From contig JAPLKB010000026.1 in the NCBI GenBank assembly GCA_026388275.1, forward strand, positions 1 to 64,000: a stretch of DNA of 64,000 bases, written 5' to 3'. Source of the DNA: Pseudomonadota bacterium (GTDB lineage Bacteria; Desulfobacterota; Syntrophorhabdia; Syntrophorhabdales; Syntrophorhabdaceae). Of this stretch, positions 1 through 38,310 are shown one piece after another. Each line of letters begins with the position of its first letter. Positions within the stretch are counted from its first letter, which is position 1. The notes under the pieces were generated by a model that saw only the letters and a list, made by a program, of their open reading frames with translations, was not told the DNA's origin and did not search any database. A program made the translations under genes and the position numbers.

Positions 1-124
1 GGCATGGCAGCAATGTTTCAGATGTGGATGAGCTGTTAGCTTTGCAGGCCGGAGACGTACTGAACGTACGTCGGAGGATCGCAAGGCGAAGCAGATCGCC
101 GCAGATGGACATTGCAATCATGCC
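1..124 (+). repeat. 124-nt structured repeat, copy 1
   Basis: This segment and 38130-38253 are the same length and similar throughout, with long identical blocks such as GGATCGCAAGGCGAAGCAGA. Three nested inverted repeats can be read. The ends (1-15 with 110-124) pair over most of their length. GCTTTGC (39-45) pairs with GCAAGGC (81-87) with one G-U. GACGTAC (54-60) pairs perfectly with GTACGTC (66-72) around TGAAC. The second copy keeps these stems with different bases. The element lies about 100 bp upstream of the ParB-like gene. It may begin before the window. It could be a structured RNA, a MITE-like element or a protein-binding site; the sequence does not decide. Confidence 0.8.
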
Positions 125-221
125 GGTGACCGACCAGGAGAAAAGAGCTAAAAATACTCAAGAAATAAAACAATATTATGAAAACTTTTGACATAACCTA
201 AATAAAATAAGGGGGGTAATT

Positions 222-3139: not shown

Positions 3140-3400
3140 GATAACAGGAAGGCAGTAGTACCACAGTCAAAAACCACGCAGTGTGCATTTCGGGAAGAAA
3201 GCAGTGCTTATGGCCAAAACCGCGTAGCATGAACTACAGGAAGTTTCTTGTACCTCAGGCAAAAACCGCGCAGCATGACTTTCGGGAAGAAAGATTTGTC
3301 TTCAGACAAAAACCACGCAGTGTCGAATTCAGGAAGCAGCTTTGCATCTTATGCAAAAACCACGCAGCTCTGCTTCAGGCAAAAGCTCCTATAGCTTACC
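3140..3400 (+). repeat. Degenerate tandem repeat array B, 45-47-bp period
   Basis: The core CAAAAACCRCGCAG begins at 3168, 3215, 3260, 3307 and 3354, a spacing of 47, 45, 47 and 47 bases. A second conserved piece, TTCGGGAAGAAAG or similar, lies about 20 bases after each core. Before the last two cores are perfect hairpins with different stems: TTTGTCT/AGACAAA (3295-3310) and TTTGCAT/ATGCAAA (3341-3357). The core and preceding bases match array A (1185-1580) in reverse complement. Units are too divergent for a CRISPR, and there are no cas genes. Confidence 0.8.
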
Positions 3401-17768: not shown

Positions 17769-17873
17769 AACACCTTCCCTTCCCTTTTTTCTCTATCGTT
17801 AATTAATTTATACCACACATTGCTGACAACATCATGTCAGTTTATAACTACAATTGATTATTTTTATTGAGGA

Positions 17874-17915
17874 GGCTTGAACCACCATGTCCGCAAGGAA
17901 CACCGGATTTTGAGT
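17874..17915 (-). pseudogene. tRNA-Leu(CAA) remnant, possible attachment-site half
   Basis: These 42 bases match 20737-20778 inside the intact tRNA-Leu(CAA) gene with two mismatches and no gaps, in the same orientation. The match covers the anticodon loop through the variable arm to the T loop; the acceptor ends and 5' half are missing. It cannot encode a working tRNA. A tRNA fragment repeated directly about 2.9 kb from the intact gene is the usual footprint of site-specific integration into a tRNA, or of a partial duplication. No integrase gene lies between the two. Confidence 0.75.
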
Positions 17916-20721: not shown

Positions 20722-20809
20722 TGGTGCCGAAGGGGGGGCTTGAACCCCCATGTCCGCAAGGGACACCGGATTTTGAGTCCGGCGCGTCTGCCAATTCCAC
20801 CACTCCGGC
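20722..20809 (-). tRNA. tRNA-Leu(CAA)
   Basis: On the minus strand the sequence starts GCCGGAGTGGTGGAATTGGC and ends TCGGCACCA with the CCA encoded. The anticodon stem CCGGA/TCCGG encloses the loop CTCAAAA, so the anticodon is CAA, reading UUG. There is a long variable arm, as in class II tRNAs, and a T arm with GGTTCAAGCC. A promoter precedes it at 20838-20866. A 42-bp copy of its 3' half lies at 17874-17915. Confidence 0.95.
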
Positions 20810-34481: not shown

Positions 34482-37481
34482 TCACGGATGCTCCACTATT
34501 GCAATTTCTTCTTCCGTCAGCCCGTATAACTCATACACAAGCAGGTCTATCTGCCGGTCAATGGCGTCAATCTGACGCTGGATGGCGGTTTTGTCATGAG
34601 GCGTCTTTGCCTCGGCAAACTGTTTATGGAGGCCAAGCATCTGCTCAACAAGGGAGACCATGCGGGAGTGGAGGACAACATCGGCGAGGTTGGAGAAGTC
34701 GATGGTGCGAATAGGAGTTTGTTGAACATACATCGGTTTATATTCGAAGTATCCACCCTGTTTAGTAGAAGAGATTGAGTGAATAAAAAAGTCACTTACC
34801 CTTGAGTTCAATACACCAAGTAAATACATGTCATCAGAAGCAATGATTGATGTTTTGTCGTTTGAGTAAAACCCACTGGCATCAAAGGTGTATGATGCGT
34901 TTTTTATGATAGACGGTATTATAATTTTTGCTTTTTCAAATTCTTCCCAGTAATCTATTGCATCCTGTACTTCATACCACTGGTAAGAGCCTGGTTTCCT
35001 TCCCTTCCAGCTTTCACCTTTCCAATCTCTTGGTTTCGGCATTAGTCTCTCTTTAAATTGCAGCAAATGATGGTAGATAGCAGGATAATTTTTGATATTA
35101 ATGCCTCTCCTTGTAAAAATCAGAAATCTATTACTTGCAGGTGGCTGATATCGCTTAACATCTCTCCCCAGCAGGAAGGGTTTGATAAGCTCTGCACTTT
35201 TCGGGTCTTCAGCAATGAGTTGTTCACGTGTCTGTGAGTCGATGACAAAGGCTTCGTTAAGACCCGTTAACACACCACGGTAGATTTTGCCTTTCACATA
35301 TTCTCCGAGAGGCACCCCCTGTTTCAGTATCTTCGAAAGAAGCAACTGTGTCCGGTTGTCAGAGAGAGACCAGCCTTTATCGTCAAGGGTTGTTTGATCG
35401 ATGTTGTAACTATTCGAGCTTACATAATCTTTCAGGCTTCCAAAATCTAAGGTTTTGACCTGAACAGCATTAAAACTCAATTTCGGCACTGTGTTTGAAA
35501 TACGTATAATACATGGATATGTAGTAGCCTTCTCAAACACAGGCAAATCTCCGAAATCAACAATCTCTTCAATACACTGTCCTTTTAGCCATGTCCGTAA
35601 GGGTTCTCCATAACTTGCCCGCATCCATTTGTTTGCCACAATATATGAAAAAATACCGCCATCTTTGAGGAGGGAAACGCCTTTTTCAATAAAATAGGCG
35701 TAAAGGTCGGCAGAGCCATCATAGACACTATAATGCTTCTGGAAATACTGTTTTAAGTCACCGAGCATTTCCTGACGGACATACGGTGGGTTGCCAATGA
35801 CCGCATCGAAACCCCCTGCCTCCATGATGTCTGAAAATTCTGCATTCCAATCAAAGACATTGATCCGGTAGCGTTCTGTATCATCAAAGAGTCCCATTTG
35901 CCTGTTGTCGTAAAAATCAGGCCCTATGAGAGAGTTGCCGCATTTTATATTGTTGCTGAGGTCCGGCAGCGCACGCTCATGAAAGAGCGTCATCTGTTGT
36001 GATATGGATTGCTCAGTCTCGCCCTCCAGGACTTTCAGCAGCAGCGAAAGCTTTGTAACCTCTACCGCCTGCGTGTCAATGTCTACACCGAAGATGCTGT
36101 TGAGGAGTATACGTTTTCTCTCGCCTGTTGTAAGTCTCCATCCACCTCCTGACGCCTGATACAGGGCGAGCGATTTGCCCTTTGCCCACTTCCCCGGCGT
36201 ATGAGAGCTATACCAGTCTCTGTGCCAGTCCAGAAGGGATTGATAAGCGCCGATAAGGAATGAGCCTGAACCGCAGGCAGGATCGAGTATCTTTATGTTT
36301 GCCGCCTGTTTCGGCGTCTTGCCTTCAAGAAGTTTTCCAACGGTGTTTTTCACAATATAGTCTACGATATAACGCGGGGTATAGTAGACGCCCCCTGCTT
36401 TTTTCACCTCCGGCTTATCTTCAATTACTGCCCTGTGCCCGGCCGTAAGATGTATCACCTTGCCGAGAAATTGTTCATAGACCTGTCCCAGAATATCTGC
36501 CGAAAGTACTGAAAATTCATAGGGACTGTCAGGGTAGTACAGATTTTTAATGATCTCTTTGATGACCTTGTCGTCTATGAGAAGATTGAGAGTCAAATCA
36601 TCGGGCGGCTCAGGGCGCATTTTTTCTGCCCGTAAATGGAACAACCCTGAATTATAACGCTCATCAGCATGGCGGAACAACTGACAGAGCCTTTCATATG
36701 CATTAGTACCGTTCTGGAGAGAAAACAGACGCCCATAATCCTCGATCCCTCTGTCTTCGCAGATGCGAAGAAAGATAATGCGGTCAATTGTTGTTTGGAC
36801 TGCAAAATTGAGATTGCGCTGTGACAGGTCCGGGTTGCGAAGGGCTAAGATGCGGGCAAGCATCTCACGCCAGGATTCTATTTCTTTCAGAAAGGCAGCA
36901 TCCACTTCAGCAGTACCTTTCTTTGTTTTACTTGACTCGGCATATTTATCGAAGGAGCCCTTAAGCACTGCCTCACGTGAGAAGATGGACACAATCTCCG
37001 TCCAATGTTTTTCATATTCGGCACAGGTAAAGTACAGGATACGCCCGATTGCCGCCTTATCGGTTTTGTCGGGCTTTATACGGCAGTCATAGACGGAAAA
37101 TTCTTCAAAATTGGTAAGTATGGAAAGAGGTAACTTAGCTGACCATGCATAACGGCGAAGCTGAAAAGCAGGATCGGGGTCATCCTTGATCCGAATTGAC
37201 GGCTTTTTCGCTTCCACAAAAAACTTCCTCGTGCCGCCGATACGGAAGCTGTAATCAGGCGCTTTTGTAAAACCGCCTATTTTTATCGCATCTTCGTGAA
37301 CAACATCCTTGTACGCCTCGGCATAGCCATTCTTATTCTCCACATCCCATCCGAGGGCGTCAAAAAAAGGATCGAGGAATTCACGCCTGAGCTGGGTCTC
37401 ATTGTATTGACTTGACCTGTAAGCCTCTGCATTCCGGTTATACCGTTCAATCAAATCCGAGAGTTGAATAGTTTCCGACAA
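34482..37481 (-). CDS. Type IIG restriction-modification enzyme (Eco57I-like)
   Basis: The 999-residue single chain combines cleavage, methylation and recognition. The N-terminal nuclease has a PD-(D/E)XK core (APDYSF then FVEAKK, residues about 75-95). A helical linker is followed by an N6-adenine methyltransferase: motif I LDPACGSGSFLIGAY (about 400) and motif IV GNPPYVRQE (about 561-568). The C-terminal 330 residues resemble the TaqI-like target recognition domain (LLGRDVKRY, YFEYKPMYVQQTPIRTID). The start is a TTG with AGAGGAAAT upstream. No partner gene is needed in this class, and none is present. It may host defence and help keep this accessory segment. The target sequence is unknown. 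Confidence 0.92.
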   Translation of the reverse strand: MSETIQLSDLIERYNRNAEAYRSSQYNETQLRREFLDPFFDALGWDVENKNGYAEAYKDVVHEDAIKIGGFTKAPDYSFRIGGTRKFFVEAKKPSIRIKDDPDPAFQLRRYAWSAKLPLSILTNFEEFSVYDCRIKPDKTDKAAIGRILYFTCAEYEKHWTEIVSIFSREAVLKGSFDKYAESSKTKKGTAEVDAAFLKEIESWREMLARILALRNPDLSQRNLNFAVQTTIDRIIFLRICEDRGIEDYGRLFSLQNGTNAYERLCQLFRHADERYNSGLFHLRAEKMRPEPPDDLTLNLLIDDKVIKEIIKNLYYPDSPYEFSVLSADILGQVYEQFLGKVIHLTAGHRAVIEDKPEVKKAGGVYYTPRYIVDYIVKNTVGKLLEGKTPKQAANIKILDPACGSGSFLIGAYQSLLDWHRDWYSSHTPGKWAKGKSLALYQASGGGWRLTTGERKRILLNSIFGVDIDTQAVEVTKLSLLLKVLEGETEQSISQQMTLFHERALPDLSNNIKCGNSLIGPDFYDNRQMGLFDDTERYRINVFDWNAEFSDIMEAGGFDAVIGNPPYVRQEMLGDLKQYFQKHYSVYDGSADLYAYFIEKGVSLLKDGGIFSYIVANKWMRASYGEPLRTWLKGQCIEEIVDFGDLPVFEKATTYPCIIRISNTVPKLSFNAVQVKTLDFGSLKDYVSSNSYNIDQTTLDDKGWSLSDNRTQLLLSKILKQGVPLGEYVKGKIYRGVLTGLNEAFVIDSQTREQLIAEDPKSAELIKPFLLGRDVKRYQPPASNRFLIFTRRGINIKNYPAIYHHLLQFKERLMPKPRDWKGESWKGRKPGSYQWYEVQDAIDYWEEFEKAKIIIPSIIKNASYTFDASGFYSNDKTSIIASDDMYLLGVLNSRVSDFFIHSISSTKQGGYFEYKPMYVQQTPIRTIDFSNLADVVLHSRMVSLVEQMLGLHKQFAEAKTPHDKTAIQRQIDAIDRQIDLLVYELYGLTEEEIAIVEHP

Positions 37482-37737: not shown

Positions 37738-37914
37738 ATGAGCAGGTTGAGAAAACACGAGATTAGACCTGAAGGCATGACTAAGAAAATCCGTGAAACA
37801 GTTTCACAGATTTCTAAAACATCTGCTAAGTCAATACAGGCAATGTTTTGCGCAATATCATTTTTAAAACCTGTTTATAGGATTTTAAGGTATTGTCATC
37901 AAAAAGTTTCGTGA
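37738..37914 (+). pseudogene. Remnant of a ParB-like gene
   Basis: This 58-codon frame encodes KKIRETVSQISKTSAKSIQA followed by MFCAISFLK. It aligns with residues about 150-185 of the ParB-like protein at 222-1169 (KEIAETISAISKIAGKSTRT, then MLNVISLLK), with many identities and no gaps across that part. Both ends of the gene are missing, no ribosome binding site precedes the ATG, and the match stops at a TGA. It is the HTH region of a decayed relative. It lies 215 bases from the second copy of the 124-nt repeat, just as the intact gene lies next to the first. Confidence 0.8.
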
Positions 37915-38056
37915 AAGTTTGTTAGAAAGATTGAACAAACCAAAACAATAGGGACGGCAGGGTATTGCCATTATTTTTATGAAAAAATGGCACTTAGAAT
38001 AAGTATAAACAGGCTTATAAAGGGAAATATCGGGAGGAGAGAGGAGGAAGTATGGG

Positions 38057-38116
38057 AAATGAAGAATGATTTCTTCATTTCCGCCGGATTCACATAATCA
38101 TATATGTGAATCCGGC
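38057..38116. repeat. Two adjacent perfect hairpins
   Basis: AAATGAAGAA/TTCTTCATTT with loop TGAT occupies 38057-38080. GCCGGATTCACAT/ATGTGAATCCGGC with an eight-base loop occupies 38083-38116. They stand 13 bases before the second 124-nt repeat. No gene lies here, and neither is followed by a T-run. Confidence 0.75.
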
Positions 38117-38129
38117 TTGGGTGGGCAGG

Positions 38130-38253
38130 GGCATGGAAGAAATGCAGCAGATGTGGATGAGATGTAAGCCTTGCAGGCCGCAATCGTACTGAATGTACGA
38201 TGTAGGATCGCAAGGCGAAGCAGATCGCCGCAGATGAATATTTCTTCCATGCC
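38130..38253 (+). repeat. 124-nt structured repeat, copy 2
   Basis: This copy has the same length and layout as 1-124. The ends GGCATGGAAGAAAT (38130-38143) and ATTTCTTCCATGCC (38240-38253) are perfect inverted repeats. GCCTTGC (38168-38174) pairs with GCAAGGC (38210-38216). ATCGTAC (38183-38189) pairs with GTACGAT (38195-38201) around TGAAT. Where the two copies differ inside stems, both sides change together: GAAAT/ATTTC here versus GCAAT/ATTGC in copy 1, and ATCGTAC/GTACGAT here versus GACGTAC/GTACGTC. That points to selection on structure, or to hairpin-dependent copying. Confidence 0.85.
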
Positions 38254-38310
38254 GCCGACCGTCCAAAGAGAATAACTTGACAAGGCATACACGCAAACCC
38301 CTCAGCGGCT

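Follow-up and report, generated by a model that had tools for sequence, protein, structure and literature searches.

A MITE-Like Repeat with a Covarying, Strand-Specific Hairpin Core in a Syntrophorhabdaceae Genome and Related Hairpins in Other Members of Its Phylum

Introduction

Bacterial MITEs are usually found at the level of a species or a family and are explained as leftovers of insertion sequences; REP/BIME sequences, associated with a RAYT transposase, are palindromes scattered over the genome that show strand polarity and compensatory changes.

According to the review PMC10969869, MITEs with stable transcripts, truncated copies, and RNase processing are known, as are terminator-like MITEs. 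The same text regards as MITEs the ERIC sequences, i.e., short intergenic palindromes present in tens to hundreds of copies, whose number varies between taxa and whose folded transcripts can influence the stability of mRNAs. It also describes QMITE2 of Coxiella burnetii, about 190 bp long, with many truncated REP-like copies lacking terminal inverted repeats (TIRs) and with folded transcripts, and the Chunjie MITE of Geobacter uraniireducens, with 38 intergenic copies of 178-235 bp harboring TIRs and direct repeats. Furthermore, multicopy intergenic families of unknown function, some of them palindromic, are reported for G. metallireducens, G. bemidjiensis, and Pelobacter carbinolicus (PMC2700814, PMC2996986, PMC3543383).

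Here, we analyze a repeat family of a Syntrophorhabdaceae genome starting from a window, i.e., the whole stretch of 64,000 nucleotides of contig C26 that was examined. The repeat is present in multiple copies, has terminal repeats, is inserted where a sister species is uninterrupted, and contains a strand-specific structure covarying across the phylum. We consider it likely that it represents a non-autonomous MITE-like element and that the lineage that spreads is under selection for the folded single strand of this element, probably as RNA.

The Two Copies in the Window

A previous sequence-only reading of the window had noticed that the segment at positions 1-124 recurs at 38130-38253. The two segments are indeed both 124 nt long and 83% identical (E 3e-31), and the paired changes described in that reading were found in the sequence, both in the outer stem (GCAAT/ATTGC in copy 1, GAAAT/ATTTC in copy 2) and in the inner hairpin (GACGTAC/GTACGTC and ATCGTAC/GTACGAT, respectively), with the block GGATCGCAAGGCGAAGCAGA having the same letters in the two copies. 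The figure of 124 nt holds for the length of this match and not for the full unit: the direct repeat between the two copies reaches 136 nt at 82% identity, and the element extends beyond both of them, to at least position 198 in copy 1 and over about 37961-38290 in copy 2. The plus strand of both copies (the strand of the window, read 5' to 3') folds far better than dinucleotide shuffles, with z values of -7.8 and -8.9 for copy 1 and copy 2, respectively.

The core hairpin of copy 1 (1-124, plus strand) corresponds to a covariance-model match at C26:1-124 (131 bits, model positions 14-137), and its 5' side is cut by the contig start. Since position 1 is the first base of the assembly contig, the 5' part of this copy is missing from the assembly rather than absent in nature; contig ends often fall in repeats. 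Downstream of the core lie its conserved 3' tail GGTGACCGACCAGGAGAAAA (125-144, plus strand), which is common to most genome copies and pairs loosely with TTGAGTGGGCAGC, missing upstream in this copy, and the 3' TIR AACTTTTGACATAACC (pattern match at C26:183-198, plus strand, two mismatches).

Copy 2, also on the plus strand, starts with a degenerate 5' TIR, GGTATTGCCATTATTT (37961-37976, four mismatches, locus L120), which lies 156 nt from the core, as is typical of the family; a second, closer match, GGTATTGTCATCAAAAAGTT, is located at 37889-37908. Then follow hairpin 1 (GAAATGAAGAA/TTCTTCATTTC, 38056-38081), recurring in one subfamily of copies, and hairpin 2 (GCCGGATTCACAT/ATGTGAATCCGGC, 38083-38116), which was found in nearly all copies and whose arms in relatives have different letters with complementarity retained. 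The core hairpin together with the outer stem spans 38117-38266, thus enclosing 38130-38253 (covariance-model match of 157 bits, E 7.8e-39).

The window has other features. Positions 1369-1551 and 3144-3368 belong to another family of dispersed repeats (ACTGCGTGGTTTTCCAGAGGCAAAG...), whose units measure about 46 and 92 nt and occur in both orientations; similar sequence also lies near a further element copy (L069). A 45-nt partial copy of a tRNA-Leu (caa) gene, with 93% identity, is located 2.9 kb from the gene itself (17871-17915 and 20722-20809, respectively) and is possibly the trace of an integration event; a gene with PAS and histidine-kinase domains sits between the two. Lastly, a 999-aa Eco57I/MmeI-type restriction-modification methylase fusion is encoded upstream of copy 2 (34482-37481).

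Copy Number and Anatomy of the Element

The genome assembly consists of 3.53 Mb in 71 contigs and is 99.5% complete. Instead of the two copies formerly recognized, the covariance-model search placed the family at about 57 sites, scattered over many contigs and on both strands with a density of about one copy every 60 kb; the same output also holds weak antisense echoes of these loci. Probing the whole genome with the window copy in a DNA search retrieved at least 40 matches.

Once the copies were aligned with their flanks, the 124-nt repeat turned out to be the structured core of an element of 250-471 bp. In the 5' to 3' direction, this is composed of the TIR GGTATTGTCAAAAGTT, about 80 nt, hairpin 1 (whose arms are GAAATGAAGAA/TTCTTCATTTC in one subfamily), hairpin 2 (arms CCGGATTCACAT/ATGTGAATCCGG), the long hairpin, the tail GCTGACCGACCAAGAGAAAA, and the 3' terminal repeat AACTTTTGACAATACC. 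The TIRs are 16 bp long, and their pattern matched the genome 26 times in the forward and 29 times in the reverse direction, vs. 2 and 2 for the reversed control. The 5' TIR was found ~156 nt upstream of the core in 18 of 30 copies (1 in the null) and the 3' TIR about 60 nt downstream in 9 of 30 (0 in the null), with only 7 copies harboring both, several of these without a clear 8-bp duplication. Target duplications of 8 bp are exact in two elements (GCAGGATA and AGCCCCTT) and agree at seven of eight positions in two more; none was seen in the others, where they are absent or decayed.

The 3' TIR includes the hexamer TTGACA directed outward, so that hybrid promoters would be possible; no clear -10 box at the right distance was detected in the copies listed. 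Moreover, in several copies, among which L266 (G000:C39, 3400-3545), L074 (1280-1400), L068, and L087, the long hairpin has one of two recurring inserts (CACGAGCAGC... and CCCTCCCCC...) in place of its terminal loop, as though insertions there were tolerated or even favored.

Insertion Sites, Gene Context, and Search for a Mobilizing Enzyme

For four elements, the two flanks were joined and used as queries against the sister species G001. Across the insertion points of C3:8306-8712 and C37:20760-21135, the G001 sequence is uninterrupted, a single stretch being retrieved with 82-85% identity. These sites, together with the TIRs and the duplications, show an insertion after the split of the two species, at least at C3:8306-8712, where the duplication is exact. 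The repeat, for which the sequence-only reading recognized no named MITE family, was thus found to sit inside a MITE-like mobile element: it is small (250-471 bp, thus below 500 bp), without coding capacity, multicopy (about 57 copies), and mostly intergenic, and TIRs, target-site duplication, and uninterrupted site were each observed. It is a MITE in all the defining features save a found autonomous relative.

Directly downstream of copy 1 is an intact ParB-like gene (ParB_N, HTH_ParB; 222-1169), and directly upstream of copy 2 is a decayed fragment of a similar gene (about 37740-37888). The same kind of ParB-like remnant precedes the copy at locus L046 of G001, whose downstream flank resembles a different site of the genome under study (L005). 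This arrangement suggests that recombination has occurred between element copies.

The surroundings of 30 copies were analyzed with a simple hexamer-based gene caller. These copies adjoin called genes rather than interrupt them, overlapping ORFs being small and weakly scoring, and the gap to the next gene is shorter than 200 nt in all but one case, often 20-100 nt. The next downstream gene lies on the same strand in 18 copies and on the opposite one in 12, a difference that is not significant; no clear rule emerged as for a leader or a terminator, and orientation was discarded as a sign of a UTR function.

Concerning the enzyme, the Pfam models of the IS6, IS1595, ISL3, and Y1 transposases gave no match in this genome. 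The TIR pairs across its 71 contigs enclose only short elements, no transposase-like gene was seen at the two lone-TIR loci with ORFs that were inspected, and inspection of two regions between neighboring copies revealed nothing obvious as a partner gene. Points against our preferred explanation are that an autonomous partner was not found among the TIR pairs and the four transposase families, that only 7 of 30 copies harbor both TIRs, that these TIRs are specific to this genome, and that private changes preserve pairing more often than a crude neutral expectation (see below). The mobilizing enzyme may belong to another family, may have been lost, or may be hidden in an assembly gap.

The transposase search also bears on a different reading, according to which the repeat would be a single-stranded-DNA hairpin of the REP/RAYT or IS200/IS605 kind, recognized by a Y1 (HUH) transposase. 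Dispersed palindromes, compensatory changes, and strand polarity do resemble such systems; nevertheless, Y1_Tnp (PF01797) had no match either in this 99.5%-complete genome (G000), with its approximately 57 copies, or in the carriers G037 and G039, whereas many non-carrier genomes have several. In addition, TIRs with 8-bp duplications are, to our knowledge, not expected from this mechanism. We therefore hold this reading to be quite improbable.

Distribution among Relatives

With the covariance model, related hairpins with the same fold were detected in 14 of the 46 genomes of the order; other genera hold as many as 32 copies, and many close ones have none. In the sample of the phylum, matches were obtained in 83 of 395 genomes, corresponding to 56 of 246 genera, with no more than seven candidates scored per genome. 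The best 25 distant matches, when aligned, mostly have CCAGATGCAAGGCG, GGCGTAC/GTACGCC, and GCCGCAGATGGAC at matching positions, and for this reason we regard them as homologous and not as random hairpins.

The unit conserved in the other genera of the order comprises only hairpin 2 and the long hairpin, and conservation extends beyond the model by 40-80 nt on the upstream side and by 0-40 nt on the downstream side. The TIR of this genome showed no enrichment in those genera. The restriction of the TIRs to this genome, along with the conservation elsewhere of the two hairpins only, implies that structure and TIRs may have separate histories. It is at this point that one can imagine a scenario in which phylum-wide repeats are built on a single strand-specific RNA fold, their RNA being recognized in trans for spread or protection as in a bacterial counterpart of SINEs, with DNA-transposon ends having been gained secondarily in some lineages; we regard it as unlikely.

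In distant relatives, A5/T5 runs flank the stem. Five loci of such organisms (L247 and L259-L262) have the hairpin bounded by TTGATGGCTTCGTAAAAAGTC-like inverted ends that are unlike those of this genome, and these ends could be a second terminal-repeat set for the same core. Lastly, contigs G010:C105 and G019:C79 are equal in length (8432 bases) and agree in the position and score of their element copy, which points to probable contamination of one of these bins.

Searches against Known Families

The sequence-only reading did not recognize the repeat as a named RNA, in agreement with our search of 4227 Rfam families at curated thresholds, which retrieved only a tRNA from the window. At permissive E-values, the loci with the genome's own or distant copies gave only sub-threshold, chance-like matches. 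No match was obtained in plasmids, phages, or IMG/VR viral contigs, nor, using the window copy in distant mode, in E. coli (5,426 genomes, 20,395 records). A 19-base scan of the GTDB contigs returned single scattered matches in unrelated organisms, which were taken as chance, and an interpretation as integron attC sites was dropped because the copies are scattered. The literature search retrieved nothing on the sequence or the family.

Covariation, Strand Preference, and Level of Selection

The two window copies had been read as a sign of selection on a folded RNA or DNA structure, with a covariance model, a search of the genome and its relatives, and covariation statistics proposed as the way to check it. 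These analyses were carried out and support the idea. The model was built on 35 aligned copies, drawn from this genome and from six relatives, and includes 44 pairs, 25 of which have changes on both sides with pairing kept, more copies thus covarying. None of 500 shuffles, which ignore relatedness, reached any of the five covariation measures; the more robust of these is the number of pairs changed on both sides (25 vs. 13.7 +/- 1.8). By sliding the partner 1-3 columns, pairing falls from 94.5% to 27-41%, a control that is biased since the structure was derived from the same sequences. The pair at columns 39-121 exemplifies the pattern, being found as G-C, U-A, and A-U. Furthermore, a separate, structure-free alignment of 24 distant relatives gave a de novo fold with the same architecture, in which 19 of 30 pairs covary, and passed the same shuffle and slide controls.

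The stem is imperfect and strand-biased, with conserved internal loops, UGAG/CGAAG among them, and the CAGAUG motif repeated on both arms could form tandem G.A pairs. Folded as RNA, the plus strand is the more stable of the two in 97 of 98 copies and never the less stable one; DNA parameters give it the advantage in 96 of 98. The consensus energies of the two strands, each obtained in its own computation, are -56 (plus) and -39 (minus). G.U cells outnumber A.C cells by 189 to 12 and by 55 to 4, in a structure that was itself derived on the plus strand. This asymmetry and the excess of G.U favor selection on a single folded strand. The choice between RNA and DNA had previously been left open; the same two observations favor RNA more than DNA as the selected form. 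The GC skew of the window is weak and mixed, and is no usable guide to orientation with respect to replication.

The same data can be set against the view that the repeat is a double-stranded DNA palindrome, i.e., a protein-binding site or a transcription terminator. The A5/T5 runs flanking the stem in distant relatives would suit it, as would the terminator-like MITEs described in PMC10969869; yet a symmetric cruciform or binding site would favor neither strand, and U.G pairs are conserved, such as that at columns 44-117 (33 of 35 sequences). In our opinion, this view has very little probability.

Selection at the level of the copy or of the family was considered in 32 high-scoring copies. 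Changes common to at least four of them keep pairing in 274 cases and break it in 15, vs. 29 and 16 for private changes, which are equally dense in stems and loops; we read this difference as the outcome of selection acting on the lineage that spreads, after which the copies decay. Private changes keep pairing in 64% of the cases (29 of 45), vs. a crude neutral expectation of 38%, although the copies had been picked by model score.

That residual bias is one of the points in favor of a structured RNA serving the host (a small RNA, or a hairpin for mRNA processing, stability, or regulation), spread by a MITE and kept at many loci. A role of this kind would also agree with the phylum-wide persistence with covariation, the strand-specific fold, and the many copies lying 20-100 nt from the next gene. 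On the other hand, the 30 copies follow no clear orientation rule (18 vs. 12), presence in the order is patchy (14 of 46 genomes), some copies were inserted recently and are not common to both sister species, and the terminal hairpin is often swapped for foreign inserts. All this considered, a host function seems to us rather unlikely.

We thus return to the MITE-like element with a selected single strand, for which the following scenario can be depicted. The element inserts mostly between genes, with 8-bp duplications, and has reached about 57 copies. Its plus strand would be transcribed, or would become exposed as single-stranded DNA, and the fold would be needed by the copies that spread, being recognized, for instance, by a mobilizing or protecting protein acting in trans. 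Single copies, once inserted, would decay fairly freely.

In this family, one covarying fold persists over many families of the phylum, and the ends, the small hairpins, and the loops around it change. With such persistence amid changing surroundings, one can test whether selection on a mobile repeat acts through its folded RNA or single-stranded DNA. Moreover, being absent from Rfam and present once per about 60 kb, the repeat has consequences for assembly and annotation, and possibly for gene expression, in these organisms.

Comparison with Known Systems

Like ERIC, the element is a short, intergenic, palindromic, and multicopy repeat of the MITE class; it differs in sequence, the window copy having no match in the E. 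coli genomes, and in having 16-bp TIRs, 8-bp duplications, and an imperfect stem with strand bias and conserved internal loops. QMITE2 is likewise a MITE, many of whose copies are truncated and without TIRs; it is described in one species, and the passages of the review on it mention no phylum-wide covarying core. The dispersed palindromes, strand polarity, and compensatory changes recall REP/BIME and RAYT, but the element is much longer and its genome is without a Y1 transposase match.

The motifs quoted in the passages on the Geobacter and Pelobacter families (GRCGTAGCGCTGCTACGCC and heptamer/octamer repeats) differ from those of the element. Chunjie, as summarized in PMC10969869, is similar in size and style, a likeness by description that speaks neither for nor against identity or kinship in sequence. 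What distinguishes the repeat among MITE-like elements is its covarying, strand-specific core, which is unusually widespread.
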